From a virus, in the IMG/VR virus record IMGVR_UViG_3300008050_003866, positions 1 to 23,868 of that record: 23,868 bases of DNA. One strand, written 5' to 3'. The position numbers and the translations under genes are program-made. Position 1 is the stretch's first letter; each line of letters begins with the position of its first letter. Positions 5,853-23,350 of the stretch are shown here, in pieces. The notes beneath the pieces were generated by a model that made no database searches, had not been told where the DNA came from, and saw only the letters and a list, made by a program, of their open reading frames with translations.

Positions 5853-7858
5853 TTCCATTCCTTCTTATCGGCCCAGTTTGTCATTGTCGTCTCCAAGTCA
5901 GCGATCACAGGAACCGGGCCGAATAAGCCCGTGAACGCTTCCATTTCACGCTGAACAATCAGCGCAACCTCTCTCAAATCAGATTGAGCGCAGTCTACTT
6001 GGATCTCATCGTGGACTGTGCTGGTCGTTACCGCTGGAAGAAGACCGTGCTGCTCCAGCAGCCATAGCTTTACGAGACTGAACCTAGTCAGTTCAGCCGC
6101 GCTCCCCTGTACGAGGCACGCAAACATGGAGCGCTCCTCCTCCGCCACAGCCGACTCATTATCCCAGAGGAGTCGCTTCCCGTGACACTCACGGCTCGTC
6201 CAATTCATAAAGGAGAGGCTACCCTTCCTCATTTTGCGGAGGAGCGCCTTCTTCGTCCGATCAATCTCCGGGTTTCGCTGGTGGTAGGCTCGGTGATAAG
6301 ACTTCGCCTGTTTCTCCTCCATCATCAAATCGGGGTTAGTCATCAGAAGAGTTGGGCCTCCTCCATACGGCACTCCGAAGTTAATGACCTTCGCAGCCCC
6401 TCGTTGCCGCTTCCAGTCGGAACTGGCAGGGTCAGCCCCGAAAATCTCCTGCGCCACAATCCCGTGAACGTCTGAAGACTCCTCGTTCTCCCGTGCTAAG
6501 CGATAATCCTCGTAGTCTATCAGCTGATCGCATAGCCGAGCATAAGACTCCGACTGATACGCTCCCAGAAGCGTCTCGTTCTGCGTAATCCACGCCAGCA
6601 TTCTCAGCTCAATCTGCGAGTAGTCGCAATAAACGCGTGCCCTCCCAGGCTCAACGACGAAGGCTCGCCTCACCATCTTCGATAAGACTGGGTGTCGATT
6701 GGGGATATTCTGGAAATTAGGCTTACTCGAAGAGAGTCTGCCACTAGCGGCTCCATGCTGATTGAAGCTCGGATGGACGTACCCGGCTGAGTCAGCCTTC
6801 ATAATCAGGCTGTCCGTGTAGGTACTCAGCACCTTGTATCGAGCCCTCCACTCCATCAATGGGTCAATGCCCTCGTGTAGAGGCTTCAGATTAGTGAGTG
6901 CAGCTCGGTCCACGGCAGGCTCATTTCCGCTCTCGGTCATCTTAGTGACCGGCAGTCCCAAGTCTTGGTAGAGAAGAGTCCGAACCGCTCGGTCGTTATT
7001 CCAAGCCAAGTCTACCCCAAACAGATTCTGTAGCTCCCGTCCTCCGGTATCCAGCTCATTATTGAGCTGGACCTTCACCCGTTCGAGGTAGTCGGTATCG
7101 ATCAGCTGCCCTCGGTACTCCATGTCGGCAATGGCTCGAACGAGGAGCATTTCATTCTCGTACAAAGATCGTCGTCTAACCTCCCACGGCTTACCCAGTC
7201 CCATAGCTTTTGACCTCTGCACTCGGTCGAGTGCAAGCGTGTGTCCAACGTCCCTGCAAGCGTACTCAGCCTCTAGAGGAACCGGCACCTCTTGGTGCCC
7301 GTTCTTATCGAGGTAGGCAGTCCGAGAGATCCTCAACGACTTAGCCCGAGCCCGAATCCAATGCTCCACTGCGTCCTTCATCTCAATCGCATCTTCATAG
7401 GGAGAAGCGCCGATTTGCATAACGACCTTCTCCAGTTGCATAGCCCTCGCCTCGTCTATGAGGTAAGCCTGGATCATTGTGTCGTGAATCGGAGTCCACG
7501 GAGGCACGGCCCAGTCGTCGGCCCGAGCCATATTAATGTCGAACTTGAGATTATGCCCCACCAGCTCTGGGGCCTTCTTGAGCACGTCCGAGAAAGCTGC
7601 CTTCGCGTGGTCCACATTGGCTTGCCGATCAGTCGTCCTGTGCGCGACCGGGACGTACCACGCCCTCGGGCCATCTCCTCTCCAGTACCCGACTGAATAG
7701 CCTATAGGCTTCTGCCCGTCCCAATATCTCAATCCGCTCGTTTCAAAGTCGAAGCCCACTACAGACGCAGACGACAGCTCATTTACCATTGTCGTCAAAT
7801 CCTCAGAGGTCGTTACGAGTTTATGCCCAGCTGTCATCTTCGTCGGTACCAACATCAT
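5849..7858 (-). CDS. Family A DNA polymerase with 3'-5' exonuclease domain
   Basis: 669 residues from the ATG at 7858, which overlaps the upstream stop as ATGA and has GAGGAG eight bases before it; in-frame ATGs further upstream lie inside the previous gene. Proofreading motifs: Exo I GFDFETSG (D37, E39), Exo II GHNLKFD (D107), Exo III YACRD (D203). Polymerase motifs: SGRLSSSKPNFQNIPNR (about 372-388), motif A DYSQIELR (D412), motif B KVINFGVPYGG (K490, F494) and motif C VHDEIQVD (H616, D617). There is no 5'-3' exonuclease domain, as usual for phage PolA. The residue equivalent to E. coli F762 is phenylalanine. This is the phage replicative polymerase, acting with the helicase and primase encoded upstream. 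Confidence 0.97.
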   Translation of the reverse strand: MMLVPTKMTAGHKLVTTSEDLTTMVNELSSASVVGFDFETSGLRYWDGQKPIGYSVGYWRGDGPRAWYVPVAHRTTDRQANVDHAKAAFSDVLKKAPELVGHNLKFDINMARADDWAVPPWTPIHDTMIQAYLIDEARAMQLEKVVMQIGASPYEDAIEMKDAVEHWIRARAKSLRISRTAYLDKNGHQEVPVPLEAEYACRDVGHTLALDRVQRSKAMGLGKPWEVRRRSLYENEMLLVRAIADMEYRGQLIDTDYLERVKVQLNNELDTGGRELQNLFGVDLAWNNDRAVRTLLYQDLGLPVTKMTESGNEPAVDRAALTNLKPLHEGIDPLMEWRARYKVLSTYTDSLIMKADSAGYVHPSFNQHGAASGRLSSSKPNFQNIPNRHPVLSKMVRRAFVVEPGRARVYCDYSQIELRMLAWITQNETLLGAYQSESYARLCDQLIDYEDYRLARENEESSDVHGIVAQEIFGADPASSDWKRQRGAAKVINFGVPYGGGPTLLMTNPDLMMEEKQAKSYHRAYHQRNPEIDRTKKALLRKMRKGSLSFMNWTSRECHGKRLLWDNESAVAEEERSMFACLVQGSAAELTRFSLVKLWLLEQHGLLPAVTTSTVHDEIQVDCAQSDLREVALIVQREMEAFTGLFGPVPVIADLETTMTNWADKKEWK

Positions 7859-8537: not shown

Positions 8538-8953
8538 TTCCTGACCTTGGGAGGTGGTACTCGCCTCTTTAAGGCTCGCAATACGCGCTGGACCACGCTT
8601 TGAGGCACGTGGTTAGGTGGTGGCTCCTCTTCGAGCCTAAGTCGGCCTAAGTACCCTTTGTCGCCCTGCCAGCAGGACGCAGCAAACACGCACCCAGCGC
8701 ATAGGCCCCGAGTCGGTGAGTATTTCTTCCGAAAGCACGTAGGAGCGTACTCCGCCTCAGAGGAAGCAATGGCTAATAAAGCCAGTGCCTCTCCCTCCGT
8801 CCCTGAGAACGAAGAAAGCCCCGCACCGACGAGAGCCGCCTGAGTATCCTCAGTGACCTTCGCCGATGCGAGGCTAGATATCGGAGCCAGCACCCTCCCA
8901 GAAGTGTTACTCCGATCTCCCCAACTTTTTCCAGACTTTTTCCCACGCGGCAT
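8534..8953 (-). CDS. Four-cysteine (CX11CX2CX5C) protein of unknown function downstream of the sigma factor
   Basis: 139 residues from the ATG at 8953, chosen because GAGGG lies six bases upstream; an upstream in-frame ATG at 8992 lacks a site. The gene begins inside the 3' end of the sigma-factor gene (47-base overlap in another frame). Four cysteines at about 73, 85, 88 and 94 form CX11CX2CX5C, a spacing seen in Fe-S or zinc sites such as WhiB-type regulators and the AddB/Cas4 iron-sulfur clusters, although none of those families is otherwise recognisable. The N-terminus is basic (MPRGKKSGKSWGDR), and the C-terminus carries EEPPPNH and RVPPPKVRK. A second protein in the window (18389-18907) has nearly the same cysteine pattern. 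Confidence 0.75.
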   Translation of the reverse strand: MPRGKKSGKSWGDRSNTSGRVLAPISSLASAKVTEDTQAALVGAGLSSFSGTEGEALALLAIASSEAEYAPTCFRKKYSPTRGLCAGCVFAASCWQGDKGYLGRLRLEEEPPPNHVPQSVVQRVLRALKRRVPPPKVRK

Positions 8954-9578
8954 CTTTTTCCCTCGGAGTCGCTGACATAGCGTCCTCCACACTCTCTATG
9001 CCCACAGATCGTAAAAAGTCAGCAGCCTTCTTCTTAATCGCCCAATAACGCTGCCGAACGACCCGACCGTCGCCGCTGTGTAGTCCGGTAATCGCTCCGA
9101 TTTCGCTAGAGGTCCAGCCATCCGCCCTCATCCTGATTAGAGCGTACTCGGCTGGCGTAAACCTGTGCTTTAGTAGCTCCTCCCAGAACTGAGCGTCGGA
9201 TTGTCGCTCAACTGCGTAGACCGCGTCTTCAGGACTATCACCACTCTCCACGGTTCTAAGAACTCCGAGCATTCGGTCCTCGCTAAGGTTGGACGACTTC
9301 CATCCGCCGCCTCGATCAGCCGACTTCTTAATGTCAGTCCAAAGTCGGAGCTTTTTGCGCCTAAGAGCGCAATTCAGATAGGCTGGGGGAGGCTTGCCCT
9401 CATTTCCTATAGCCCATTGTCGACAAGCTCCGACGACAGCGAGCGATAACTGTTGCTCCGCGTCTTGTATCGTCATCCCGAGCCATTCTAGTCCTCTGAT
9501 CCCGGAAGCGATTTGCCTACACCGCTTCCGAGTTTCGCTGACACACTGCGCTTCCCACGCTGAGGCTGTGGGTTTCAT
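8907..9578 (-). CDS. Sigma-70-family-like RNA polymerase sigma factor
   Basis: 223 residues. Residues about 38-75 (QDAEQQLSLAVVGACRQW...PAYLNCALRRKKL) resemble sigma region 2, including the pattern in which an aromatic/charged helix is followed by a short 'ayL...i...l' helix. Residues about 139-190 (FTPAEYALIRMRADGWTSSEIGAITG...) resemble region 4, with the helix-turn-helix around WTSSEIGAITGLHSGDGRVVRQRYWAIKK. The start overlaps the CobT-like stop as ATGA. Role, if correct: redirect host RNA polymerase to phage promoters, perhaps the repeated upstream elements in this window. It is divergent, and a non-sigma helix-turn-helix regulator remains possible. Confidence 0.7.
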   Translation of the reverse strand: MKPTASAWEAQCVSETRKRCRQIASGIRGLEWLGMTIQDAEQQLSLAVVGACRQWAIGNEGKPPPAYLNCALRRKKLRLWTDIKKSADRGGGWKSSNLSEDRMLGVLRTVESGDSPEDAVYAVERQSDAQFWEELLKHRFTPAEYALIRMRADGWTSSEIGAITGLHSGDGRVVRQRYWAIKKKAADFLRSVGIESVEDAMSATPREKDAAWEKVWKKLGRSE

Positions 9579-12040
9579 CGGCGACCCCCGCTGGACTGGA
9601 TCAGAAGATCACTGAGCTGCCGCATAACCGCATTGCTAAGCCCCACGCCGCTCTCAATCAAAACATGACCAGTCGCCGCTCGATGTCCCCGTCTCTCTTG
9701 GTTGGGGTAGAAGCTCGCGTACTTCTCCTCATGACCGCGTCCGTAGTAGCCAGCGCCGATCCCAACGCCGATCCCGTATACCTCGATTCCAGCCTGAGCC
9801 ACGGTCTCCACGCAGTCCCTCAGATGGCGATCTTCAATCCCGTGGTCGTTTGCTCCAGCTGGGAGTCCGTCCGCGATAACAATCATCACTAGTCGGTCGC
9901 AGTCCCCAGCGTTCTTCACCGCGTATTTTGCAGACTCAATCACCGATTCCCCGTCAAGGTTCGCAGCGTACCCAGTCACATATGGGATTGCTCCTCCGTC
10001 ATCTGATAGCCCAGGAGCCGATACAAACTCATGCATCCAGAGCGCTGAACTCCAACGCGACCATCGGCAATGCTGTTCCGAGTTCCCGGCAGAATCAGTG
10101 TAGGTGACCATATCCCTAGAAGCTCCGCTGCACTTAGCCGCATAGGAGTTGGTGTACCCCACAACAGAATGAGGCACTCCGCAGAGTCTAAGAGCGTCGT
10201 GAAGAACCATTGCCGTCATCGCTGCGTACCCAGCCTTAGACGTGACTCTGTAGGCCAGAGGCTTCCCGCAGCGGACCTGCTTACCTCGGTCGTCGTCCCA
10301 CCGCTTCCGACTACAGGATTCCCCTTTCTGGTTGACCTCTCCGTGGATTGGACACGTCTGCTGTGGAGCGCTGTCTCCCATGCTACCAGAGCAGTCGACT
10401 ACGATCTGGACGTAAGTGTTTTCCGCCAGCTGGTTGAAGTTATCGGAGAAGATATGAACACTGTCAAACCCCATCGCCAGCCCCGGCAAAGCGTCAGGGT
10501 CAAGGCTGTCGCCCTCCTCTAAGCCACCCACTCGCAAGTTCTGCTTTTGGGCCTTGATCGCGCATCTGAGGTGATTGGCCATAACCGTAGCCGCTGGCCC
10601 AGCCGCCTGACGGAGCCCCTTCGCTGCCTTAGTCGCTTCCTTCCTCTTTGAGCGGTTATACTGCTCCCATTTATCCTGACTCGCCGCTCCAGGATAGACT
10701 AAGTACGGTCGGTTATTAGCGTCAGTCTGGTGAATCCCCGCGATAATCTCGCTGGATGTTTTCAGTTCACCGTAATCGCCTCCGCAGCACGCATCTGCCG
10801 CGTCTATGACCTCTGACGGAGCCTTCATATCCACTTCGCCGACTCCATTTTCGTTGGTCTTACCGTCCTCACTTTTGCCCTTTTCAGGCTCAGAATCCGG
10901 GGAGTCTCCTTCCCCTTCATTGTCGCCTTCGCTGGACCCGTCCTCTCCGTCGTCACCTCCTGCGTTATCACCTTCTTCGGAGCCTTCTTCGGAGCCCTCA
11001 CCCTCAGAGTCATCAGAGTCGTCAGACCCGTTGCCTGACTCATTGTCGTCTCCATCCCCGTCCTCATCCGAGTCCTCATCTCCGTGGTCGATATCGTTGG
11101 AGTCCTCGTCCGAGTCCTCGTCCGAGTCCTCAGAGTCGCTATCCGAAGATCCGCCTGACTCCTCCTCAGTGTCAGACTCAGTGTCCGAGTCCTCCTTGCC
11201 CTGGGGAGAGCCGCTACCTTCCTCAGACTCCTCAGACGACGACTCACCTTCTTCTTCTGACTCACCCGGCTTCCCGAGATCTCCGATATCAGTCCCGTCC
11301 GCATCGTCAGTAGCCATATCCTGGAGCGCCTTCAGCTTATGCCAAACAGCCTCGGCTGCGTCACACACCTCGTCACTTGATTCGGCGAGAAGTCCTAAGT
11401 GGCACTCATCCTGAAGGTAATCGAGGAGCAGCGAAGTGGTTGGGTTAATATCCTCCTGCTTCACGTGCCCTCCGTGAACACGCAGCATGGCTTGAATAAG
11501 AGCCATAAACTGACCGACCGGCTGCTCAGACCCTTCAGGGACGTACTCAGGGTCACACGCCTTCGCGCCTCCCGTTTCTCGGATAACTACCTCGTGGGTC
11601 GCTTTAAGATGTCGCCGACTTCCAGGGTTAATCGCTTGCCACTTTCGCTCAATGTAAAAGTCCTCAAAGACGTTAGCGAGGAGCATTACCCGTCCTCGCT
11701 GGAATACCAGTTCGCCATCTGCATCCAGCTCGGAGCCCCATTTCTCGAGTCGACTCTCGTATACCACACCGTCCGAGTACTCAACATGAGCACACTCGTG
11801 GTCCAGAAGACCTCGCCAAGCCCACTGATGCTCCTCAGTCGCGTCCTCCCGAGCCGCATAGTTCGGTACGGTCAGCGTTCTAGTTTTCCAGTTCCAGCTG
11901 GCTCCTACGCCACGAGACTGAACTACGATGTCTGGTGCTCGTACCAGAGCCCGAGCCGTCCGCTCTGCTGCGGATTGCAGCGCTTCCATCGCTGCTTGTG
12001 GACTAAATAGTCCTTTTGGTTTGAATGGTGGTGGTGTCAT
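9575..12040 (-). CDS. CobT-like protein: HExxH metallopeptidase-like N-terminus, acidic tract and VWA (MIDAS) domain
   Basis: 821 residues. The N-terminal domain carries LLDHECAHVEYSD (HExxH, H81/E82/H85) and NVFEDFYIE (about 123-131), the paired motif of CobT-like and VWA-linked putative zinc peptidases. Residues about 255-405 are an extreme Asp/Glu/Ser/Gly tract. The C-terminal third is a von Willebrand A domain with MIDAS DCSGS (D549, S551, S553) and VIADG (D724). A Cys/His-rich insertion (C563, H566, C576, C591) sits directly after the MIDAS. CobT normally works with CobS and CobN to put cobalt into hydrogenobyrinic acid a,c-diamide; no CobN is present here, so a chaperone-like or metallopeptidase role with the CobS-like ATPase encoded upstream is at least as likely. 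GGAGG lies seven bases before the start, which overlaps the previous stop (TAATG). Confidence 0.88.
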   Translation of the reverse strand: MTPPPFKPKGLFSPQAAMEALQSAAERTARALVRAPDIVVQSRGVGASWNWKTRTLTVPNYAAREDATEEHQWAWRGLLDHECAHVEYSDGVVYESRLEKWGSELDADGELVFQRGRVMLLANVFEDFYIERKWQAINPGSRRHLKATHEVVIRETGGAKACDPEYVPEGSEQPVGQFMALIQAMLRVHGGHVKQEDINPTTSLLLDYLQDECHLGLLAESSDEVCDAAEAVWHKLKALQDMATDDADGTDIGDLGKPGESEEEGESSSEESEEGSGSPQGKEDSDTESDTEEESGGSSDSDSEDSDEDSDEDSNDIDHGDEDSDEDGDGDDNESGNGSDDSDDSEGEGSEEGSEEGDNAGGDDGEDGSSEGDNEGEGDSPDSEPEKGKSEDGKTNENGVGEVDMKAPSEVIDAADACCGGDYGELKTSSEIIAGIHQTDANNRPYLVYPGAASQDKWEQYNRSKRKEATKAAKGLRQAAGPAATVMANHLRCAIKAQKQNLRVGGLEEGDSLDPDALPGLAMGFDSVHIFSDNFNQLAENTYVQIVVDCSGSMGDSAPQQTCPIHGEVNQKGESCSRKRWDDDRGKQVRCGKPLAYRVTSKAGYAAMTAMVLHDALRLCGVPHSVVGYTNSYAAKCSGASRDMVTYTDSAGNSEQHCRWSRWSSALWMHEFVSAPGLSDDGGAIPYVTGYAANLDGESVIESAKYAVKNAGDCDRLVMIVIADGLPAGANDHGIEDRHLRDCVETVAQAGIEVYGIGVGIGAGYYGRGHEEKYASFYPNQERRGHRAATGHVLIESGVGLSNAVMRQLSDLLIQSSGGRR
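10828..11278 (-). repeat. Acidic low-complexity coding tract in the CobT-like gene, with short tandem repeats
   Basis: About 150 codons for Ser, Asp, Glu and Gly with almost no hydrophobic residues. Within it, a 12-base unit (GAGTCCTCGTCC on the plus strand) repeats about two and a half times at 11100-11131, and related units recur around it. CobT proteins normally have an acidic linker between the N-terminal and VWA domains, so the tract is expected in kind; its length and repeat structure suggest expansion by slippage. Confidence 0.85.
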
Positions 12041-12675
12041 TATCTCGCCTCCTTGCGGTTTTCCATTTCCTTGAGTTTTCGTTTAAGCTGGATTTTGGCC
12101 AGCCGCCTCGCCCGATAATCTTCATCGGACTCAGCAAAGTCAGACTTCGGCTCCATATCTGCGATCCTCTGTTTCAGATCCTCGATGTCGGCTTCGACCT
12201 TTCGCCACTTCGCATTCGCATCATACGAAGTGAACGACAATCTCCCTTTGTAGGCTAGATCCCACCCAGGTATAGGCTCCCATCCGTCCGCAGTCTCAGC
12301 CGCTCGGGACTTCTTCCCGAGAAGTCTCCGAGCAGTCTTCAGAGCTGCTTTCTCCATCGCGAACTCTGGTCGATGAGCGTGTAGTCCCATCGCCTCGAGT
12401 CCCTTTCGACTTCGGAAGTAATCATTGGGGTCGTCTTGTGTCTCCTGGGCCAGGAGCCACGCCTCGACCGCTTTGACGTCCATCGGCTTCTTCTTATACG
12501 TCTTATTGAGCCCGGTAAAGATCTCTGCGTCCATATCGATCATTCCGATCCAGACGGTATAAGTCCCCACATCAGCTCTTGTGACAATAACAGCGTAAGC
12601 GTCGTCTCCAACGTACACCCCGCTCGAAATGGTTGGCCCTTTCCACAGCTCAGCTGCGATTGGTACTAGAGACAT
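12040..12675 (-). CDS. Unknown protein between the CobS-like and CobT-like genes, with C-terminal coiled coil
   Basis: 211 residues with GGAG seven bases before the ATG. No family is recognised. The N-terminal half (SSGVYVGDDAYAVIVTRADVGTYTVWIGMID) looks like a beta-rich fold. The C-terminal segment from about residue 158 (WRKVEADIEDLKQRIADMEP, then RRLAKIQLKRKLKEMENRKEAR) is a probable coiled coil. It sits directly between the ATPase and the VWA protein (two bases from the former, one base overlap with the latter), so it may be a third component, adaptor or substrate of that pair; this is inference from position only. Confidence 0.8.
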   Translation of the reverse strand: MSLVPIAAELWKGPTISSGVYVGDDAYAVIVTRADVGTYTVWIGMIDMDAEIFTGLNKTYKKKPMDVKAVEAWLLAQETQDDPNDYFRSRKGLEAMGLHAHRPEFAMEKAALKTARRLLGKKSRAAETADGWEPIPGWDLAYKGRLSFTSYDANAKWRKVEADIEDLKQRIADMEPKSDFAESDEDYRARRLAKIQLKRKLKEMENRKEAR

Positions 12676-12676
12676 T

Positions 12677-13753
12677 TTAACTCTCCTCTGATATGACGAA
12701 CATTCTGCGAATGATCTCGACTAGGGTGTCACGCTCAATTGACGACTTCTGCCGTCTGAGAAACGCTCCGTAAGCAGCCTGGAGTACATAGGAGTCGTCG
12801 TCTCCCGCCTCAATCGGCTTACCTTTCGCATTGACCTGACCCGCTGCGATTCGACGCGCCCAGTCGAGAAGCATCCGAGTGCTGAAGCCCCCGCTGACCT
12901 CTCGGGATTGTCGTACTCCCTCAGCGACTCGCAGAATCCCCCGCAGGTGATCGTGATCGAGGTTGGGTACTTTGCTCGATATGCAGAGCTTCTCGGTATC
13001 CTGATCCATGTACGGACAGTCGATGAAACTGCCAAATCGGTCGAGGAGAGCCTCGTTCATATCGGAGTTCGTTCCTGCGTATGAGAATCGAGTCGACTCC
13101 TGAGAAGCGCCCAGAGCGTTATCCGTTGCGAAGATCCGAAACTCCTCGTGCCTCCGTACATAGCGAGGAGGCTGTGCGTCCTCTAGGAGTACCGCTCCTT
13201 CAGGCTCCAGTATCGGGAAGAGTGCCATAGCAACTGGCGGACTGATCGCCGCAAACTCGTCAAGGAGCAGCCATCCCCCAGACTCAGCCGCAGCCGTAGC
13301 GATACCTGGGACGAACACTGTCCGTCCAGCCTCAGCGCCGATCCGACCCTTCAGATGTCGAACCGATGTTCCGATGTTCATGTTCACCCGCCAGACAGGG
13401 ATATTGCAGCGTGCTGCAATTTGCATCACAAGGCTCGTCTTGCCCGAGCCCTTCGGACCCGTAATCAGACAGGGTGTCCAGCTATTGCAAGCCCAGGGTT
13501 TTGGATTGTCGTGCGGCCAAACAGCCCACGCGAGTTCCCTCACCAGATCCTCTCGGAATACGTAGTTAGGGTCAATTGGCGGAACTCCGTGTGGTATACA
13601 CTCGTCTCCATCTTCGTCATAGTTGACCGCTTGAAACAGCTGAACATCGATCCCAGGTAGGACTAGCGGTTTCCATACTCTCGGCTTTCGGGGAGGCTTT
13701 GCTCCCGCAGTCGGCTTCTTCGATTTAGTGGTTGGTGGTTTGACTTTTGCCAT
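12677..13753 (-). CDS. CobS-like / MoxR-type AAA+ ATPase
   Basis: 358 residues. A Lys/Pro-rich N-terminus is followed by a AAA+ core: Walker A ITGPKGSGKT (about 97-106), Walker B WLLLDEF (about 161-167), sensor 1 region FRIFATDN (about 205-212) and the arginine-finger segment ALLDRFG (about 235-241). The stretch TRFSYAGTNSDMNEALLDRF closely follows the CobS pattern in which an 'Y.GT...N.a..DRw' segment occurs at this place. CobS supplies ATPase activity for cobaltochelatase with CobT; related MoxR ATPases pair with VWA proteins as chaperones. GGAGG lies six bases before the start. It is the first gene after the upstream element at 13805-13878. Confidence 0.88.
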   Translation of the reverse strand: MAKVKPPTTKSKKPTAGAKPPRKPRVWKPLVLPGIDVQLFQAVNYDEDGDECIPHGVPPIDPNYVFREDLVRELAWAVWPHDNPKPWACNSWTPCLITGPKGSGKTSLVMQIAARCNIPVWRVNMNIGTSVRHLKGRIGAEAGRTVFVPGIATAAAESGGWLLLDEFAAISPPVAMALFPILEPEGAVLLEDAQPPRYVRRHEEFRIFATDNALGASQESTRFSYAGTNSDMNEALLDRFGSFIDCPYMDQDTEKLCISSKVPNLDHDHLRGILRVAEGVRQSREVSGGFSTRMLLDWARRIAAGQVNAKGKPIEAGDDDSYVLQAAYGAFLRRQKSSIERDTLVEIIRRMFVISEES

Positions 13754-13804: not shown

Positions 13805-13878
13805 CCGTGGTAAGGACGGGATAATCCCCGCTCATACCTATAATGAAACTAACAATTCGATTGAACGTCATTGTCGTC
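13805..13878 (-). promoter_or_regulatory. Conserved upstream element, copy A (before the CobS-like gene)
   Basis: Read on the minus strand, this intergenic element starts GACGACAATGACGTT, continues to ATTGT and GTTTCATT, then GGGATTATCCC (a five-base inverted repeat with one central base) and CTTACCACGG. The same blocks in the same order, at nearly the same spacing, occur at 15904-15976, with roughly three quarters of positions identical. It ends about 50 bases before the cobS-like start. Its function is unknown: a promoter for the phage sigma factor, an operator or an mRNA leader are all possible. I do not see a convincing sigma-70 -35/-10 pair here. Confidence 0.6.
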
Positions 13879-13920: not shown

Positions 13921-15006
13921 TTACACCCAAGGACACTTCGCAGCTTCGGAAGACGCCTCCTTAGACGCCTTCTCCTCTTCTGCCTTCACCTCGGCCTTTG
14001 GTCGGTGAGCCTCCTCAATCCTCCGCAGCATCTCGCGGTTGTACCCATAGAGGTCGTCCTCTGTGTATCCGTAAGATTTGAACTGGCAGATTCGGTATCT
14101 CTCGCTGTCAGACATGTTCGGGTGATCGGCAATAAACTTATCCCAATGGACATGAACCCCCTTGAGTCCAGACGACTCGTAAGCTCGATCCCACTCCTTC
14201 TGAAGCCAGATCGCAGTTCGCCACATCTGTCCTGGGCGACACTCACTGGTGTCCCCGTCGAAGTCTGCCTCAAAGAGTTGCTCAGTTCGCTGAGTGGTAA
14301 GGTACTCCTTCTTGTCGTAGAACTTCACAGCAGCCTTGGCCCATATCGCAAAGCCCTTCCGCCGCTTATTGTATTCGTTCGGGAGGTGACTCCGCACTCG
14401 ACGGTCCAGGTACTTCCGACCAGCAAGTCGAGCCATCTTCCGCACAACGTCCATCGCCTCGTCCGCGCTAGGGTGAGCCTCTCGCCATTCATGACGAGTC
14501 TGAGCTGCCTTAGACTTACCCTTCATTTTGTTCAGAAGTTTGAGCGCATTCTCAGAACACGCGTCCCCATCGACAGTGACTCCGTATTTGACGATACAGG
14601 TAGACCCGGTCCAGATCTCCTTACCGTTCTTCTCATTCAGAATAGGGAACTCGTAGCGATTGTTTTTATGTCCGCAGAGTTTGCAGTCCACCTTTCGGCA
14701 CTCTCCATCCCACCAGTCGAGGTGGTCATCGCGCCAGAATGGGTAGCCCCAGTCTCTCATACGATGCGATTCAACGTTCCACTCTGAGAGCGCCTCGGCG
14801 ATCAGTCCGCTATCAAGGTGAGCGTAAAGCGACTCAAGTTGAATCGCTGGGATTGTCGACTGATCCCAGTCGTTCTCCATCAGCGCCTCGATAATCGCTT
14901 CGAGATCATCTGGACAATTGGTTGATGAGAAGAGAAGCCTCAGCGTCACGCGAAATGCGTGAGCGCTTGCAGCGACTCCGTTAAGGTTAGTTAGTGGATA
15001 TGACAT
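13921..15006 (-). CDS. Protein of unknown function with a treble-clef-like CX2C...C site
   Basis: 361 residues from the ATG at 15006, which has GGAGG five bases upstream; an in-frame ATG at 15024 lies before that site and is rejected. Residues about 108-140 read CKLCGHKNNRYEF, then an EIWTGSTCIVKYG segment: a CX2C knuckle followed by a beta hairpin and 'GSTC', a layout common in small zinc domains of phage DNA-metabolism proteins. C103 or C150 could complete the site. The rest is helical and rich in Trp, Lys and Arg; the C-terminal 35 residues are Lys/Glu/Ala-rich. No catalytic motif is seen. The position within the replication block suggests nucleic-acid binding. Confidence 0.82.
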   Translation of the reverse strand: MSYPLTNLNGVAASAHAFRVTLRLLFSSTNCPDDLEAIIEALMENDWDQSTIPAIQLESLYAHLDSGLIAEALSEWNVESHRMRDWGYPFWRDDHLDWWDGECRKVDCKLCGHKNNRYEFPILNEKNGKEIWTGSTCIVKYGVTVDGDACSENALKLLNKMKGKSKAAQTRHEWREAHPSADEAMDVVRKMARLAGRKYLDRRVRSHLPNEYNKRRKGFAIWAKAAVKFYDKKEYLTTQRTEQLFEADFDGDTSECRPGQMWRTAIWLQKEWDRAYESSGLKGVHVHWDKFIADHPNMSDSERYRICQFKSYGYTEDDLYGYNREMLRRIEEAHRPKAEVKAEEEKASKEASSEAAKCPWV

Positions 15007-15073: not shown

Positions 15074-15895
15074 CTACAGGTTGAAAAAGCGCTTCAAGGT
15101 CATTCGATGATGGCGAGTCCCTGGAGGGAGGGCCAGCAGAGCGAAGAACATCTTACTGACAGTGGGCCAGCTCGTCCCCTTCTTGAGGTCATCACGGTTG
15201 CCCGCGAAGTACTCCAGGGTGTAGGATCCGTCTGGATTGCAGCGCACTCGGTATTCACACCGACCCCACGACTTCGGTCCAGAAGCCCTGTGGTTCTTAG
15301 TGATACAAAGAAGCCTCCCCGTCTCATATCCGACGACTGCGTCAGGCTGTTTGCAGCCGCTACCCTCACGCAGTTTCTTCCGCTTCGCCTTCTTGCGACT
15401 GCCTCCGGTCGTCCTCTTGACTTCCTTAGTGGCCTTCCCGACCTCTGAGGTATGGGCTCCGCTGAGATCCTCCGCCTTCAGCTCAGATCCCTTCTCCAGA
15501 GTATCGTCAGTGGTTGAATCTCCCAGATCGACTTTAAGCTCTACGACCGGCTCGTCAGTATCCTGGCTCCCTTGGGCCTCCACCCGCGAGTCGAGTAGCG
15601 TCGGGTCTGGGAGTAGCCAGTCTCGATACCAGTCCTCACTCGAACCGTCACTCGGCGTGATTACGGTTCGAGCCGCCTTCACCCCTTTCAGCACCCGACT
15701 AAGCTCGACAGTCTCGTCCTCTTCGGCGATACACTCATCGGGGAAGGCCATCATCACGGTTTCCCCGTCTCGGAAGCCGATAATAACAGCAGTCGGCTGC
15801 TCCTCTTCCTCGTCACCCCACTTCAAAGCAAAGTGGGTAAGAACACGATTCTGAGCCGCCTTCTTTTTGGTTGTACGTTGTTTTGGTTTTCGCAT
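15074..15895 (-). CDS. Protein of unknown function with a low-complexity middle
   Basis: 273 residues, with GGAGG five bases before the ATG at 15895. A very basic N-terminus (KPKQRTTKKKAAQNR) leads into an acidic/beta segment; residues about 120-185 are low-complexity and charged, ending in GGSRKKAKRKKLREG. The C-terminal 90 residues look like an independent globular domain (DAVVGYETGRLLCITKNH, then SWGRCEYRVRCNPDGSYTLEYFAGN and a helical end). No family is recognised. It is the first gene after upstream element B and is followed by the treble-clef-like protein. Confidence 0.78.
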   Translation of the reverse strand: MRKPKQRTTKKKAAQNRVLTHFALKWGDEEEEQPTAVIIGFRDGETVMMAFPDECIAEEDETVELSRVLKGVKAARTVITPSDGSSEDWYRDWLLPDPTLLDSRVEAQGSQDTDEPVVELKVDLGDSTTDDTLEKGSELKAEDLSGAHTSEVGKATKEVKRTTGGSRKKAKRKKLREGSGCKQPDAVVGYETGRLLCITKNHRASGPKSWGRCEYRVRCNPDGSYTLEYFAGNRDDLKKGTSWPTVSKMFFALLALPPGTRHHRMTLKRFFNL

Positions 15896-15903
15896 TACTG
15901 CCT

Positions 15904-15976
15904 CCAGTGGTTTAAGGGGATCATCCCTCTCACAACATCAATGAAACCGACAATAGAGTTAAACGTCATTGTCGCC
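15904..15976 (-). promoter_or_regulatory. Conserved upstream element, copy B (overlaps primase 3' end)
   Basis: On the minus strand it starts GCGACAATGACGTTTAA, which is also the last codons and stop of the primase gene, then has ATTGTCGGTTTCATTG, GGGATGATCCC (five-base inverted repeat with one central base) and CTTAAACCACTGG just above the ribosome site of the 273-residue gene. CGACAAT and ATTGTCG form seven-base inverted arms separated by 13 bases. TTGGCG, 17 bases and TATTGT give a fair sigma-70-like promoter match in this copy, but copy A lacks the same -35. Confidence 0.6.
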
Positions 15977-17044
15977 AAACTTTATTTGTGGACAATTCAA
16001 CGGGGAAATTGACCTCTCAAAACGACGCACCCGTGTAGCTCGAAACCGAGTCGGTCTCGCAAGAGAAGCGACTGGCTCCGAAACCTGAGTCTCGTCGATC
16101 AATCGTAGAACTTCCGCTCTTCCTAAATCTGCTGGGTCGAAGCCCGCTGGACACTGGGCGACCCGAGTCGGAATAAGAGTCCCCAGTCGCTTACGCGCTG
16201 CGATTGCTCCAGTCACTCCAGCCTCGTCTGGGTCATACAAAATCACAGCTTCCCGAGCGCCGGATGAGGCTATCAAAAACGCCTGTTCCACCGAAAGGGA
16301 GGCTCCGAGCGTAGCCACAAAGCCAGGACCACAAACTGCCACGTCCATTGGACCTTCGACCACGATCACGCGACTCCCAGGTAGCACAGCGTGAAGGCCA
16401 ATCACAACCTCAGACCGAGTCGCACAGCCTGGGACGTGGTCCAGTCCCCAAGCGACGTGCCTTGTCTCCCTCGGGAGATTCACCGTCTTAATGTGATGAG
16501 CGTCGGTCGCTCTTGCTACCCAGTAAACCAATCGGTTCCTCAGATCGTAGGCCGGAATCAGAAGCCTCCCGCTGAGGAGTCGATCCGCGATGCTACAACT
16601 CCCGTCTCCACTGATTGACGACAATCCGAACAGACCGCAGTTCTCGTCGGATATTCCCCGACTCCGAGCGTACTTCTTAGTGTCTCCCTGGAGAGGCTCT
16701 GTCCCTGGAGGCACTGGCGCTTTAGGTAGAACCCCTCGCTTCTCCTTCGGCTTATGGAGTGGCTCAATGCGTCCGCTCGCCAGCGTAAGCGCTCCGGTCG
16801 TTAAGTAGGATTGAGTCTCCTCAAAGTTCAGACCCAGAGTCGCTGAGATCAGTCCCACTGGCCTCCGCCCAGCAAACTTACAAACCCAGCACTGCCACGC
16901 CTTCTTCTGGACGTTGACTGCCAGCTTTGACCGACCGCATTTAGGGCAGACGCAGATCCACTCATTTCCCGAGCAGGTCTCCACCGTCAGGTTGGCTTCC
17001 ACCCACGCCTTAAAGTCCAGGTTTAGCTTAGACGACGACCGCAT
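15959..17044 (-). CDS. DnaG-type DNA primase (zinc-binding and TOPRIM domains)
   Basis: 361 residues. The N-terminal zinc domain has CPKC (C33, C36) and CWVC (C52, C55). The TOPRIM core has VIVVEGPMDVAV (E230) and ILYDPDEAG (D271, D273), with ATLGASLS between them, as in DnaG and T7 gp4 primases. It is compact, with the zinc and TOPRIM parts joined by a linker and RNA-polymerase-like region of about 100 residues. The ATG overlaps the replicative helicase stop by one base (TGATG), fitting a primase-helicase pair. The C-terminus ends GDNDV, encoded by the start of upstream element B. Role: synthesis of RNA primers at the fork. Confidence 0.92.
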   Translation of the reverse strand: MRSSSKLNLDFKAWVEANLTVETCSGNEWICVCPKCGRSKLAVNVQKKAWQCWVCKFAGRRPVGLISATLGLNFEETQSYLTTGALTLASGRIEPLHKPKEKRGVLPKAPVPPGTEPLQGDTKKYARSRGISDENCGLFGLSSISGDGSCSIADRLLSGRLLIPAYDLRNRLVYWVARATDAHHIKTVNLPRETRHVAWGLDHVPGCATRSEVVIGLHAVLPGSRVIVVEGPMDVAVCGPGFVATLGASLSVEQAFLIASSGAREAVILYDPDEAGVTGAIAARKRLGTLIPTRVAQCPAGFDPADLGRAEVLRLIDETQVSEPVASLARPTRFRATRVRRFERSISPLNCPQIKFGDNDV

Positions 17045-18402
17045 CAGTCATCCACAGGTGGGGGAGGTGGTGGCTCATCGCGTACTGATAAGTCGGAGAA
17101 AGCGCCTTTGGTGTAAGCCGTTCGGACTCTGACACAGAGTCCGTCCTCGGCATCCCGGTATTTCCCCAGAAACACGCGAGCCAGCTCAAACTCCCGCTCC
17201 CGCTCAGTCCGGTTTAGCGAAATGATAATATCGCTCACCCGCACCTTTTCGTAGCAGTCGGCGACATCTCGTGGTCGTAAGACGTGTTCTCTCCGATCTG
17301 CCCCCTTATCCGGTCTCTGAGCCTGAGTGGGGGAGCAAACTGCGTACCCTCTGTGGCCTCTGAACTCAATCCGCTCTGAGAGAGCCTTCAACTGCCGGAA
17401 GGCGACCTTCTGGCGCATATACTCCGACTCTCCGTCCGCCCCAGCCCAGAGTAGATCCCCGTAGTCTACGACGATCAAGTCAGGTACCCAGCCTCGACTG
17501 GTCCTCAGCTCTTTAAGCTCAGCGAGGAGATCGTCGTAGGACGCTCGCCAGCTATCCAAATCCCCGAACCCCCGAATAACGAGATTCTCCTTGAGTACCC
17601 GGTATTCTCGCTGCATTGATGCCATCACCGAAGTGCTGATATCTCCAGCTTTCACCGCACTGTAGAGGCTATCGGCAAACCGAGACTCGTATCGGTCCTC
17701 CGTTTTTGAACGACCTCCTTCCAGTACAAAATGGAGACAGCGCTTCCGTCGACGAGCAGCGGTAAACCCTCTCTGAACACACCAGAAGGTTTTGCCGATT
17801 CCTGAGTAGGCCATCACCACCTCTAGCTCACCCGGTGAGAGTCCCCCGTTCATCGCTCGATCCAGCTTATCGATTCCTATTGGATGGGCGATTGAAGTTC
17901 GCTCAGAGGTTTGTCGTCTAAACTGTCGGTCACCAAGCTCTTCGAAAAACCATCCTCGATCTGCGTCTCCAAATCGGATCTGCCTCATCTCGTCGATCCG
18001 ACCCATCATCAGATCCATAGCAGACTCTGGCTTCCCTTCGTTCCAGGCTTCTCTCGCCTCGGCAAATCCCATCATAAAAGTCTGCTGCCGAGCCCACTCC
18101 ACAATCGAGTCACGAACATATTCAGAATCCCGAACGTCACTCATGTCCTCGACGATTGCACTCGCTCCGACTCTGGCTGGATCTTCGTCTCCGAGCCTCC
18201 TCAGCTCAGTCTGAAGTTTCAATAAGCTCGGATTCTCGTCATCACCTATGACTTGCCAGCCCCACAAGCTCGCTGGGTCGGTCCATCCTAATTGCCCTGC
18301 CTCAATAAACCTCCGAACGAGAGCCTTGAGTCCTGGGTCATCCATCATTGTCCGCACTAATTGTCGTTGAAAAGTCGGACCAAATTCGTCAGCTCCTCGC
18401 AT
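17044..18402 (-). CDS. DnaB-like replicative DNA helicase
   Basis: 452 residues. Residues about 174-192 (PIGIDKLDRAMNGGLSPGEL) lead into Walker A AYSGIGKT (about 198-205); Walker B is PDLIVVDYGDLL (D313), followed by LKALSERIEFRGHRGYAVCSPTQ, the DnaB H3/H4 region. The N-terminal 150 residues are helical and could match the DnaB N-terminal and linker regions. The C-terminus ends DEPPPPPPVDD, a polyproline tail that may contact the GYF_2 domain of the SSB (inference). GAGGG lies upstream of the ATG; the gene starts inside the 3' end of the four-cysteine gene and abuts the primase gene. Role: fork unwinding. Confidence 0.92.
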   Translation of the reverse strand: MRGADEFGPTFQRQLVRTMMDDPGLKALVRRFIEAGQLGWTDPASLWGWQVIGDDENPSLLKLQTELRRLGDEDPARVGASAIVEDMSDVRDSEYVRDSIVEWARQQTFMMGFAEAREAWNEGKPESAMDLMMGRIDEMRQIRFGDADRGWFFEELGDRQFRRQTSERTSIAHPIGIDKLDRAMNGGLSPGELEVVMAYSGIGKTFWCVQRGFTAARRRKRCLHFVLEGGRSKTEDRYESRFADSLYSAVKAGDISTSVMASMQREYRVLKENLVIRGFGDLDSWRASYDDLLAELKELRTSRGWVPDLIVVDYGDLLWAGADGESEYMRQKVAFRQLKALSERIEFRGHRGYAVCSPTQAQRPDKGADRREHVLRPRDVADCYEKVRVSDIIISLNRTEREREFELARVFLGKYRDAEDGLCVRVRTAYTKGAFSDLSVRDEPPPPPPVDD

Positions 18403-18922: not shown

Positions 18923-20497
18923 TTACTCTATGTGTCGCTGACTCGAAACGTCATTGTCGTCTAACCATTTCTCGAATTCATTCGGCTCAACGACTTCCGC
19001 TAAAAAGGCTTTCTCACCGCGATAGTGCTGGAGTCGCCTCGCGGAGTGATCGAGGAGTGTGGCGTGATGAGTGTCCGCTGCGTCGACGACAATCGCGGAC
19101 TGCTTACCCTCGGAAGCAGTCAACGCCCGAAAATAGTCTTGAACCACTTTCACTTTCGATTGCCCTGCACTGGCATAAACGAGTGCGTCTGCCGCTGGCA
19201 CGTCGCGCCCTTCCCCTATCACAGACGTTCCAACGACAGCCGAGACTTCCCCCTTCTCCAGCTTTTTAAGCATCTCATCCACGCGATCATTGTCCCGTCC
19301 GTCCACAGCCACCGCTCCTTTCACCATCATCGATAGCTTTTGAGCGTGACTGATCTCTTTTACTAGGATCAATACGCGCCTTCCTCGACGCACAAGCGCA
19401 TTCGCTGCATCGGCGAGTGCTTGGTTCCTGAGTAGGCTCTCAACCACGCCCTGTTTGTAGATATCGTACCCAGAAGCCTTCAAACTCCCCCGGATCCTTA
19501 GCATTGCAATTCTCGCTGGAACAAGCCTCCCGGCTTCAACCATATCCCCAACCGAGCGACTGTAAATCGAGCGCCCCAAGACCCCAGCCATTTCCAAGTC
19601 CTTACCATCAGCCCGAAAATGGGTTCCAGTCAGCCCCAGCCTCCAAAACGCACTCGAGCAAGCGACCGAAGCAGCCTGCCATGTTTTGGCAGCCGAGTGG
19701 TGGAACTCGTCCACTATGAGGAGCAGACGAGTGTGTAGATTCGGCAACTTGGTCGCCGTTTGTGGTGTAGCCACGATGACATCAGCTGCCACGAGCTTTC
19801 TGTGGGTTTTAGCACTCGACGACAATCCGCTGTGAACTCCGATTGTCGTCTTATGCGGAAGAAGCGCTTGGAATACTCCCGCAGTTTGATTCACAATCCC
19901 AATAGTCGGCGCAATGTAGAGAGTGGGAACTCCAAGTGCGGCTGAGACAGCGACTGCGATTCGCGTCTTACCGCTTCTCGGTGGGAGGTCGACAACGCCT
20001 CGCCCTGCCGCCAGAAACGCCTCCACAGCAGCTTCTTGGTAGTCATACAGGTCCAGACTCGCCCACGGCACTCCTCGCGCAGGAACTACCCTCTCATCCG
20101 AGATTGTGTACTCTACCCCCAATCTCAACGTCAAAGCCCTCTCAACGTGCCTCAAAAGGCCAGTCGGAAAAGACCCGTCTGCATTCACTAGACGGACCCA
20201 GCCGTCCCACACCCCTCGCTGGCGAACCGTTGACTCGAACTGAGGTCTGGTCAGCGTCTCCGCTGTTACCCCCAGAGCTTCTAACTCAGCGCAGGTTGAC
20301 TCATCGGCAAAGAGCCTCGCTATATCCCCGACTCCTCCATATCGCCGTCGAGCCGAATAAAAGCGCTTGATGATCTTCTGGGCCTCGACCGGAGGCATCA
20401 ATCGCTTTCGGTAAGCAACGTGGTGCCTCACAACCCTCAGAGCCTCCTTCTCGGTATGAAGCTGACTCATTACGTTGTGGACCTCGATCCGAGTCAT
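18923..20497 (-). CDS. Superfamily 2 DEAD/DEAH-type helicase (UvsW/RadD-like)
   Basis: 524 residues. An N-terminal region of about 145 residues with no assigned motif is followed by YDYQEAAV (Q-motif-like, about 151-158), motif I LPPRSGKT (about 171-178), IVATPQT (about 241-247), motif II VDEFHH (about 262-267), motif III GLTGTHFR (about 288-295) and motif V GTSVIGEGRDVPAADALV (about 423-440). Motif VI is irregular (QDYFRALTASEGK, about 453-465): where most members have QRxGRxxR the last arginine is a threonine (T460). Family members such as T4 UvsW process branched DNA and R-loops. The ATG overlaps the winged-helix stop as ATGA and there is no Shine-Dalgarno match, so coupled translation is likely. 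The end carries DDNDV, overlapping the repeated upstream word. Confidence 0.88.
   Translation of the reverse strand: MTRIEVHNVMSQLHTEKEALRVVRHHVAYRKRLMPPVEAQKIIKRFYSARRRYGGVGDIARLFADESTCAELEALGVTAETLTRPQFESTVRQRGVWDGWVRLVNADGSFPTGLLRHVERALTLRLGVEYTISDERVVPARGVPWASLDLYDYQEAAVEAFLAAGRGVVDLPPRSGKTRIAVAVSAALGVPTLYIAPTIGIVNQTAGVFQALLPHKTTIGVHSGLSSSAKTHRKLVAADVIVATPQTATKLPNLHTRLLLIVDEFHHSAAKTWQAASVACSSAFWRLGLTGTHFRADGKDLEMAGVLGRSIYSRSVGDMVEAGRLVPARIAMLRIRGSLKASGYDIYKQGVVESLLRNQALADAANALVRRGRRVLILVKEISHAQKLSMMVKGAVAVDGRDNDRVDEMLKKLEKGEVSAVVGTSVIGEGRDVPAADALVYASAGQSKVKVVQDYFRALTASEGKQSAIVVDAADTHHATLLDHSARRLQHYRGEKAFLAEVVEPNEFEKWLDDNDVSSQRHIE
18942..18961 (-). promoter_or_regulatory. Upstream word, copy D (before the GTG-start four-cysteine gene)
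   Basis: GACGACAATGACGTTTC on the minus strand matches the first block of elements A and B exactly over 15 bases. It lies within the last codons of the SF2 helicase gene, about 35-55 bases before the GTG at 18907. The later blocks (GTTTCATT, GGGAT/ATCCC) are not present here. Confidence 0.5.
19818..19850. repeat. Ten-base perfect inverted repeat inside the SF2 helicase gene
   Basis: GACGACAATC and GATTGTCGTC are perfect reverse complements separated by 13 bases. Both arms contain the 9-base word that recurs through the window, and the 13-base spacing equals that between CGACAAT and ATTGTCG in element B. It is coding sequence, so the arrangement is not required by the protein. Confidence 0.7.
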
Positions 20498-20817
20498 TTG
20501 GGAGGCTCAAGGATTGTGTAGAGGTTGACCCTACGAGTCTTTGAAAACTCCTTCTTCCCCACGTGGATGTACTTCGCGTCCGCCAGCTCTTTAATCGCCC
20601 GATAGATCGTCCTCTCTGAGAATCCAACGACTTTGGCCAAACTACTGATTTTGGGCCAGCATTTCTGAGTCTCGCGACCCGCATAAGGAAGCAGCGCAAA
20701 GTAAACACAGCGACTCCCGGTAGACAGCTTGCGAAATTCGTCGGTATCCATATGACTGAGAAACACCACCCCGTAGCCACTTCGACCGTCCCGAACTACA
20801 AACTCCTCCGCTGCCAT
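20494..20817 (-). CDS. Winged-helix DNA-binding protein
   Basis: 107 residues from the ATG at 20817, which has GAGG five bases upstream; a GTG at 20823 is too close to that site. The central part (WPKISSLAKVVGFSERTIYRAIKELADAKYIHVGKK) is a clear helix-turn-helix with a wing, of the type found in phage replication-initiator N-termini and helix-turn-helix regulators (IPR036388-like fold). It is the first gene of the replication block, immediately after the gap that separates it from the holin-like gene, and it is coupled to the SF2 helicase. Likely roles are origin recognition or control of the operon; sequence alone does not decide. Confidence 0.82.
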   Translation of the reverse strand: MAAEEFVVRDGRSGYGVVFLSHMDTDEFRKLSTGSRCVYFALLPYAGRETQKCWPKISSLAKVVGFSERTIYRAIKELADAKYIHVGKKEFSKTRRVNLYTILEPPK

Positions 20818-20825
20818 AGCCACCT

Positions 20826-20869
20826 CTCAGTGGACTATCCCCGAAGAAGTCCAAACGTCAGATTGTCGC
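20826..20869 (-). promoter_or_regulatory. Degenerate upstream element, copy C (before the winged-helix gene)
   Basis: On the minus strand GCGACAATCTGACGTTT is followed by GGGGATAGTCC and CCACTGAGAGG, the first and last blocks of elements A and B in the same order, but with the middle (ATTGT...GTTTCATT) missing and two extra bases after CGACAAT. It lies just above the ribosome site of the winged-helix gene. Further upstream in this 121-base gap a TATAGT at 20903-20908 could be a -10 box, but no good -35 precedes it. Confidence 0.45.
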
Positions 20870-21193: not shown

Positions 21194-23326
21194 TTAAAGA
21201 ATTGAGCCGACTGCGACAGTCAAGACGACACCGACCAGATATGGACTTCCATCGGATGCACCATCACCCTCGAGCTTAATGTTTAGGCACCATTGCATCG
21301 GTTCAAAAGTGCTCGTGATTGGCTGAAATGTCCCATTGCCTCCAATCACTGGGTCTTCAATAGCGTCTGCGGTGAAGTCCCACTCCTCTGACTGAGGGGA
21401 CAACCCGTCTCCAGGCTCCCGCACGAGGTCGTCTGTTCCTGTGGCATTATCTCCCCAGTGCCCTGAGAAGTATTGCGACCACTGACCGTTGATCGCTTGT
21501 CTGGGATCTCGGTAGACGAGCCTTGCATACGCAGCATAGGCGTTAGTGGCAGCGAAGTTCGGGTTTCTGTAGAAGAGGAACCGGATCTTTTGAATTCGAA
21601 CGCCCCCGTTTCCTGAGTTGGTAGCCTGTAAATGAGCGCCGTAGCCCAGGTACCTGTTGAGATCGCACTCTAAGAAGCTCTGGTGAGTGAGGTCCGGGGA
21701 GTTCCACTGCCACGCCGTCCCTCCTCGATTCGGAGTGCCTGGACCGACCCCGGTTGCATACTCAGCAGGAAGGTCTATCAGCTGGTACGGACGGGAATTC
21801 GCTGCCAGACCCCCTACATTGCCATTTGTGGGTAAGAACGCTGATGGTCCTAAATGAACGTAGTAGAGGCAGGTGTCATCTCTGATATTCTCTACCGAGG
21901 GAGCGTACCTCAAGAGCTGAGTAGAAGTGGTCCCAGGGAAGCCTGCATTGGAAGGTAGTATTAGATTGGCCCAAGCAGCCTGTCCGGTTCCAACCGTCAT
22001 TCCATTGGTGAAAACAGTACCCTCTCCCGGCTTCCCGGCACCGATCTCACCCGAGCCAACCTGAGTCTGATCGTTAAACATAAGACTCGGAAATGCAGCG
22101 CCTCCTCCTGTGTTGAAATACCCTGTGTAAGACGGGGAACCGGGTAGTCCTACAGCGAAATTCCCCTGAGCCTCTTGGGTGCCGGATCCGACGATTAAGT
22201 CCGTCTGTCGCTGAGCACTCCCGTGAGGGTCAACATAGTGCTCCACATGAGTCTTTAGATGACTGATACTGGCTCTCTCTCCCGTCCAGTTCCACACAGG
22301 GATGGTGCCTCCTCCAGAAGAGCCTCCTCCGACGCCGGTGAACTCTGGGCACATTGTGTACCAGTTATAGATCCCGTTCCCTTCTCCGTCTCCGATGATA
22401 TCGCGTAACTGAGCCCTTAGAACCGCTGCCCAATCCTGCCAACAGGACACTCCGTTAACTGCTCGATTGTAAGAACGCTGACCGTAAAGGGATGATCCAG
22501 AAGACCCGTCAAAACCCCAAGCGGTCGCACCTACAATTTGCGCTGTCCCTGCTCCGATTGCCCCAAGCGATCCGAACACTCCCTCGAATATGTTATTTTG
22601 CCACACGTGGAAGTCGGACCATACGCCACCTGTCATATTGTAGACAGCAATGAGCTGCTGACCGTCTCGTGGAGGTCCGCCCAGAAGCGCGTGGATGGAG
22701 GCATTCCAGCCAGCAACTTTTCGCGTGTCCATTCCGACCGCGTCCTCTGAAGTGGATGCATTGTTCCAAAACAGTCGTGTTCCTGGAATTGCCGGGTCAA
22801 ACACGGTTTCGATATAGACTCCGTAGTTCCCGTCAGGCACTGGCATTGAGATTGTTTGGGTATCGTCCCCCTCACAGCCAACAGCAGTTCCTAGCTCGGA
22901 GTCTCCGTTGTCCAGCGTGGTTCCTCCGAACCCTCCAGTTAACGGGCCTCCTCCGAGCGGTCCTAGAGTAGCTCCCTGGTAGTCTTCAAGGTAAGCGACA
23001 TTGACTGTTATCACATTTGGGCCAGCTGAAGGCTCTACACCAATGTAGTTGCATAAGCCGTTCTTCCCAAAGTTCGTTTGATATTCAGGTCGTCCAGCTA
23101 CGAGAAGAGGGTTTGCTGGTTCAGTCGCACGGTCACGAATGTTCCTCCAACCCAACCCATCCGCTTGCATCAGTCCCATGACTCCATGACCAAAAACGAA
23201 GTTATGGAGCAAAAGCCTTGTCTCACTCCGCGCATTGTCCTGTAGCGCTTTGATGTCAGGTAAATCGACTCGTTCGTTTGGTTCAAATCGAACAACGTTT
23301 CTGTCGCCCTTCGGATCATCAGCCAT
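21194..23326 (-). CDS. Probable virion structural (tail or appendage) protein
   Basis: 710 residues with GGAGG five bases before the ATG. It is rich in Gly, Asn, Thr and aromatic residues, with no enzyme motif; the long Gly-rich beta-type sequence and absence of coiled coils suit a virion protein. The N-terminal stretch (VRFEPNERVDLPDIKALQDN) resembles the base of phage tail-fibre or minor structural proteins that begin with a short attachment segment. A second large segment (about 350-710) reads like a jelly-roll or similar beta domain. It follows another structural-type gene and is separated from the replication block by the holin-like gene. Confidence 0.62.
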   Translation of the reverse strand: MADDPKGDRNVVRFEPNERVDLPDIKALQDNARSETRLLLHNFVFGHGVMGLMQADGLGWRNIRDRATEPANPLLVAGRPEYQTNFGKNGLCNYIGVEPSAGPNVITVNVAYLEDYQGATLGPLGGGPLTGGFGGTTLDNGDSELGTAVGCEGDDTQTISMPVPDGNYGVYIETVFDPAIPGTRLFWNNASTSEDAVGMDTRKVAGWNASIHALLGGPPRDGQQLIAVYNMTGGVWSDFHVWQNNIFEGVFGSLGAIGAGTAQIVGATAWGFDGSSGSSLYGQRSYNRAVNGVSCWQDWAAVLRAQLRDIIGDGEGNGIYNWYTMCPEFTGVGGGSSGGGTIPVWNWTGERASISHLKTHVEHYVDPHGSAQRQTDLIVGSGTQEAQGNFAVGLPGSPSYTGYFNTGGGAAFPSLMFNDQTQVGSGEIGAGKPGEGTVFTNGMTVGTGQAAWANLILPSNAGFPGTTSTQLLRYAPSVENIRDDTCLYYVHLGPSAFLPTNGNVGGLAANSRPYQLIDLPAEYATGVGPGTPNRGGTAWQWNSPDLTHQSFLECDLNRYLGYGAHLQATNSGNGGVRIQKIRFLFYRNPNFAATNAYAAYARLVYRDPRQAINGQWSQYFSGHWGDNATGTDDLVREPGDGLSPQSEEWDFTADAIEDPVIGGNGTFQPITSTFEPMQWCLNIKLEGDGASDGSPYLVGVVLTVAVGSIL

Positions 23327-23350
23327 TGTCGCCTCCTTGCTTTAATAGTC

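Follow-up and report, generated by a model that had tools for sequence, protein, structure and literature searches.

The stretch of DNA analysed here (the window) is a virus record of 23,868 bases, whose replication genes encode a polymerase, DnaB, a primase, and UvsX-like, SbcD-like and CobS/CobT-like proteins. An ORF on the minus strand (18923–20497) encodes a helicase with Pfam matches above the cut-off to PF04851, PF00270 and PF00271, which we take to belong to SF2. Directly upstream of it lies the gene of a winged-helix protein of the HTH_36 family (20494–20823, minus; 109 aa), which is also found beside DnaB and the primase. Within the helicase gene, positions 19818–19850 read GACGACAATCCGCTGTGAACTCCGATTGTCGTC, that is, GACGACAATC, 13 bases, and GATTGTCGTC. 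The left arm (19818–19827) carries a site on the plus strand and the right arm (19841–19850) one on the minus strand, and the arms are perfect reverse complements. Both the location and the perfection of this inverted repeat are as the initial annotation described them.

The significance of the repeat should be judged together with the word that it contains. In 40 dinucleotide shuffles, perfect 10-base inverted repeats with a loop of 3–30 bases occur 0.7 times on average and 4 times at most, and the window itself holds eight overlapping start positions, corresponding to three separate repeats. The lone palindrome is not beyond chance, whereas the word CGACAAT is far beyond it: the window contains 27 copies against 2.3 expected, and the largest count in 100 shuffles is 7. 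Allowing up to one mismatch, GACGACAATC occurs 21 times against 1.8 expected. The word uses all three frames and both strands (7 plus, 20 minus). The copies outside the palindrome and the two elements described below are as follows. Plus-strand copies lie at 565–571, 2340–2346, 12235–12241, 16619–16625 and 19087–19093. Minus-strand copies lie at 8–14, 2944–2950, 3730–3736, 5313–5319, 5883–5889, 7788–7794, 9200–9206, 9416–9422, 10919–10925, 11042–11048, 12907–12913, 13505–13511, 14852–14858, 18360–18366, 18953–18959, 20862–20868 and 23325–23331, the last overlapping the ATG of ORF 21194–23326. In the helicase alignment, phages B and E (defined below) also have the word at the column of 18953–18959, and phages C and F at that of 19087–19093. 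Element B (15948–15974), at the gene junction upstream of ORF 15074–15895, is a convergent pair with words at 15948–15954 (plus) and 15968–15974 (minus), reading CGACAAT-13-ATTGTCG. An element resembling it (13827–13876, minus; family D4, 74% identity) lies upstream of the CobS-like gene with a word at 13870–13876 (minus), and its second arm is degenerate on direct reading.

We collected relatives as IMG/VR contigs by searches with the polymerase, the helicase, DnaB and the winged-helix protein. Phage A consists of the window and G001 (99.98% identical over 15.3 kb), phage B of G006, G003 and G002 (with G008 as a duplicate), phage C of G009 and G005, and phage D of G010 and G004, the latter assigned by the common metagenome and the same word, not by overlap. 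Phages E, F, G, H, J and N are G007, G011, L048, L049, L051/G013 and L054, respectively, and phages K, M and P are L050, L052 and L053. In all examined contigs of A–F, CGACAAT ranks first or second among 7-mers by enrichment, with densities of 1.20, 2.88, 2.32, 2.01, 3.08 and 3.16 per kb in that order. Aligned sites of the window phage and its nearest relatives give an extended consensus of about G-R-CGACAAT-C, while in phage D the base that follows the word is preferably T. The distantly related L032, whose DnaB is 23% identical, contains a single copy in 16 kb. Among cultured phages, megablast gave no match, and all matches of the polymerase, helicase, DnaB, winged-helix and UvsX proteins in the phages collection are below 60% identity (best rows 21–36%); the CobT-like and 710-aa proteins had no match in that collection. 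Enrichment counts revealed no comparable word in K, M and P. The contig of phage K, which has no GACAA word, contains CAACTCG 26 times against 4.1 expected, dispersed; this is perhaps a further word class, or codon bias. The excess of GAGTCCGA in phage M was rejected as a dispersed word, at least 15 copies being found in one 0.6-kb coding stretch (L052, 16665–17270) between two CobT-like matches.

The arms of the palindrome are identical in phages A, B, C and E; the helicases of the others are 59–72% identical to that of the window. In the codon alignment of these four genes, no identical run is longer than the two formed by the arms (11 nt each; the next is 8), and among codons with an invariant amino acid, 6/7 in the arms are identical in all four phages, compared with 35/248 in the background; the seventh differs only at a base outside the arm. 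Synonymous changes breaking the repeat, which the initial annotation named as its refutation, are absent among these four phages, while the repeat is broken in two others: phage F retains the left arm alone and phage D has lost both arms, with the encoded amino acids changed as well in each case. A scan of IMG/VR for GACGACAATC and GATTGTCGTC separated by 2–16 bases returned four stretches, all from this phage family and, by the pair list, all the helicase pair. In this family of uncultured tailed phages the word is present in many dispersed copies, and the palindrome is one of its conserved pairs.

The word was also compared between reciprocal-best genes. Aligned word sites are identical in 126/428 comparisons, as against 4.7% for all 7-mers, and this rate ranks 12th among 1149 words with at least 40 occurrences, the words above it being shifted copies of CGACAAT or rare words. 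At sites with unchanged overlapping amino acids, the word is kept in 104/138 comparisons against 16.0 expected from the codon conservation of the gene pairs concerned, and the largest value in 20000 codon-matched simulations is 30. These 138 comparisons cover both directions and several pairs and so lack independence; when each pair enters only once, the totals are 52/61 against 8.3 expected. This observation argues that the word is kept by selection on the DNA itself. Such selection appears to override codon choice throughout the family and, at the helicase site, perhaps amino-acid choice.

As to the arrangement of the sites, the initial annotation proposed a dimeric binding site with defined spacing. 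Measured from G to G, convergent pairs 24–26 bp apart occur 12 times against 1.2 expected, while divergent pairs at this distance number 0 and tandem pairs 1. The helicase pair accounts for four of the 12, another four are found at gene junctions, and C, D and J supply the remaining single cases; as the helicase pair is ancestral and the junctions are partly homologous, the independent events are fewer than 12. Junction pairs precede ORF 15074–15895 in phage A, ORFs 27404–28219 and 29521–30660 (the CobS homologue) in phage B, and the CobS homologue in phage C. Two of the 12 pairs belong to phage J with its different word. Together with the arms identical in four phages, these counts support a putative binding site of defined spacing; a single fixed value of the spacing is not supported. 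The proposed 13-base separation common to the palindrome and element B is only formal, because the arms compared have 10 bases in one case and 7 in the other; between 7-mers the spacers are 15 and 13 bases, or 26 and 24 bp from G to G. A range of 24–26 bp from G to G therefore replaces the fixed 13-base value. Of the 674 sites in ten phages, by far the most lie outside such pairs. The basic unit is therefore the single asymmetric word, and the dimeric palindrome cannot be upheld as the unit.

With respect to simple ORF predictions, 297 of the 674 sites have the same orientation as the gene and 306 the opposite one (603 genic sites), and 71 lie outside ORFs against 46.6 expected, a mild intergenic excess. 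This equal use of the two gene strands led us to reject an RNA element as the general explanation. Sites occur in every 2.5-kb bin of the three contigs binned, and their spacing is more even than random in G009, G001, G000 and G013 and not so in G006, G010 and G005. One region of phage C (L024 11971–12943, contig G005), which lacks long ORFs, holds twelve copies, ten on the same strand, in about 1 kb; it is a possible control region or origin.

More distant lineages carry altered words. L048, L049 and L054 have no CGACAAT and instead contain CTGACAA in 16, 27 and 11 copies against 0.4, 0.5 and 1.0 expected. This word is common to phages of very different G+C content (0.675 in L048 and 0.522 in L054). 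L051 has GAGACAA 24 times against 0.9 expected, and the 50-kb contig of the same phage (J) contains GGAGACAA 75 times, with 0 for the reversed control. In seven aligned proteins, 8 of 38 sites of the altered-word lineages share columns with the CGACAA sites of A–F, compared with 0.32 in a shift null (largest 4 of 5000) that does not hold amino-acid conservation fixed. At DnaB column 561, for example, CGACAATC is found in B, E and F, TGACAACC in G and H, and TGACAATC in N. Taken by itself, phage J coincides only weakly with the C-class sites over the whole genome: 1/41, 0/8, 1/15 and 2/47 against D, A, B and C, with nulls of 0.06, 0.01, 0.03 and 0.08, respectively.

Bacterial contigs (genome_contigs) were also searched. 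A DnaB search for a prophage or host gave 45 pattern-matching stretches, none of which is a relative. The palindrome scan gave 8 stretches from unrelated bacteria, where about 4 are expected by composition in our own arithmetic, with 2–6 words per 5.3–8 kb nearby. Twenty phage-A proteins had no match in L033 and L039, the two of these eight that were compared. L033, an Elusimicrobia MAG contig with no protein relation to the phages, carries two similar short inverted repeats, CGACGACAATCC-ATTGTCGTC, at 1845–1868 and 3509–3532, about 1.7 kb apart.

The winged-helix protein beside the helicase is the leading candidate for a protein that would read the word. HTH_36 is present in 12/17 records, that is, in all records covering the region, the five others being further fragments of phages A–D. 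The matches include, weakly, all three relatives without a detected word (K, M and P; G017, G018 and G019), and therefore the presence of the family was rejected as proof of the reader. In what we take to be the recognition helix, phages with CGACAAT have T/G-V/I-Y/F/H-R, whereas the two CTGACAA phages whose records cover it have S/T-I/V-R-R; this difference is confounded by ancestry, since both the SF2 tree and the DnaB tree place G and N as sisters. The winged-helix tree has no well-supported branch, and the SF2, DnaB and winged-helix trees give no signal of swapping of the winged-helix gene. The AlphaFold2 model has a mean pLDDT of 74.6. Its top Foldseek hits include RepA N-terminal domains and chains of Rep-DNA complexes (4pql, 4pt7 and 5kbj), DnaD N-terminal domains and centromere-binding winged helices, with a best E of 1.6e-3, so that none reached 0.001. 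The PHROG matches are mostly replication initiation and helicase-loader families. Elsewhere in the window, a 223-aa protein (8907–9578, minus) without a convincing Pfam match has an end that resembles, by eye, sigma region 4 or a LuxR-type helix-turn-helix. A small ORF of phage A (L021 14062–14256, minus) is probably the source of a weak CsrA match (E 1.4e-4), for which the match table names no member.

Judging from these sequence comparisons, we find it reasonably probable that the palindrome is one of many genome-wide putative sites for a sequence-specific protein, most likely phage-encoded, with the winged-helix protein (20494–20823, minus) as the leading candidate. The enrichment of the word, its conservation as DNA, the geometry of the pairs and the lineage-specific words are observed; from these we infer that the sites are bound by a protein, which protein this might be, and what the binding might serve. 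The protein would occupy single sites a few hundred bp apart over the entire chromosome of the phage, so as to organise or mark it. In certain places two facing molecules, separated by roughly two and a half turns of the helix, would act cooperatively, and some pairs just upstream of genes probably act as operators. A lineage in which the specificity of the protein shifts would see all of its sites shift as well. The uniform, unoriented and in-gene distribution is best fitted by a role in organising or marking the chromosome, combined with use as operators at some junctions. A bolder version, possible though doubtful, is that binding at hundreds of in-gene sites lets the protein coat or bridge the phage's own chromosome and that the lineage words separate own DNA from that of a competitor, giving virulent phages a marking system with specificity groups.

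Several other explanations compete with this reading. The word might serve as a stoperator-like roadblock, where a phage repressor on dispersed sites stops both the initiation and the elongation of transcription, like that of Cluster A mycobacteriophages. Dispersed asymmetric sites with a phage-specific motif are indeed found here, as are the mild intergenic excess and the pairs that A, B and C have upstream of genes, and related Cluster A phages have similar, non-identical motifs according to excerpts of PMC6550527. According to excerpts of that paper and PMC9283540, however, stoperators mostly follow the direction of transcription and lose their function when reversed, whereas no predominant orientation is seen here. 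Their 20–30 sites per genome (excerpts of PMC6550527) also differ from the 1.2–3.2 per kb of these phages, and integrase/resolvase matches (PF00589 and PF00239) are found in 0/11 records, all of them fragments. PF02195 (ParB_N) likewise matches 0/11. We consider the roadblock unlikely. It is a more improbable suggestion that an initiator recognises the word as an iteron or origin site, by analogy with RepA iterons, and that replication starts at many dispersed points. The PHROG matches of the winged-helix protein, its resemblance to RepA and DnaD N-terminal domains in Foldseek, and the position of its gene beside the helicase, DnaB and primase, speak for it. The Foldseek matches fall short of E 0.001, though, the sites spread over the whole genome instead of clustering as repeats at one origin, and the dense non-coding cluster of phage C has no match in the other phages.

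There is a slim chance that the word is read by the host, either as a recombination signal of the Chi type or as some other word of the host that the phages accumulate. An asymmetric word of 7–10 bases in both orientations, mostly inside genes, would suit such a signal, and some lambdoid phages have very many Chi sites (excerpts of PMC3784561). The same excerpts give a Chi density of about 0.2 per kb in phages and hosts, and among the eight bacterial genomes from the palindrome scan, which are not known hosts, the highest density of CGACAATC is about 0.09 per kb. Neither a role of paired geometry nor a preferred pairing is known for Chi, in contrast to the convergent pairs seen here; CTGACAA across the G+C range of L048 and L054 suits phage inheritance better than a host; and the phage encodes its own UvsX and SbcCD-like proteins. 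Codon usage, a protein motif or chance would suffice for a lone inverted repeat, which exceeds no ordinary expectation. For the word, an explanation of this kind was rejected by its excess in the window, its spread over frames and strands, the codon-matched test and reversed controls at or near 0, and its probability is next to nil.

If the sites do belong to a phage-encoded protein, the change of word between lineages would be a natural experiment in which a DNA-binding protein co-evolves with hundreds of sites, and such joint drift directly predicts which small protein reads which word. It also suggests that phages without a detected lysogeny module may keep a genome-wide network of binding sites. 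No description of this word was found among the papers listed by the literature searches, one of which was far from specific.

Among known systems, the Cluster A stoperators of L5 and Bxb1 are, in the excerpts of the sources cited above, similar in having short asymmetric sites genome-wide, with phage-specific motifs and some sites at promoters. Unlike stoperators, the sites here are denser, unoriented, mostly in genes and convergently paired at 24–26 bp, and the candidate reader is an HTH_36 protein instead of a two-domain repressor, with no integrase match in the fragments examined. Plasmid RepA, DnaD-type initiators and the centromere-binding winged-helix proteins AspA and TubR are likened to the candidate reader by fold; those matches are weak, and the sites here are dispersed and form no iteron or centromere array. 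Chi sites, in the excerpts of PMC3784561, are likewise asymmetric, dispersed, present in both orientations and enriched in some phages, whereas the word described here is much denser, occurs in pairs and changes between related phages.
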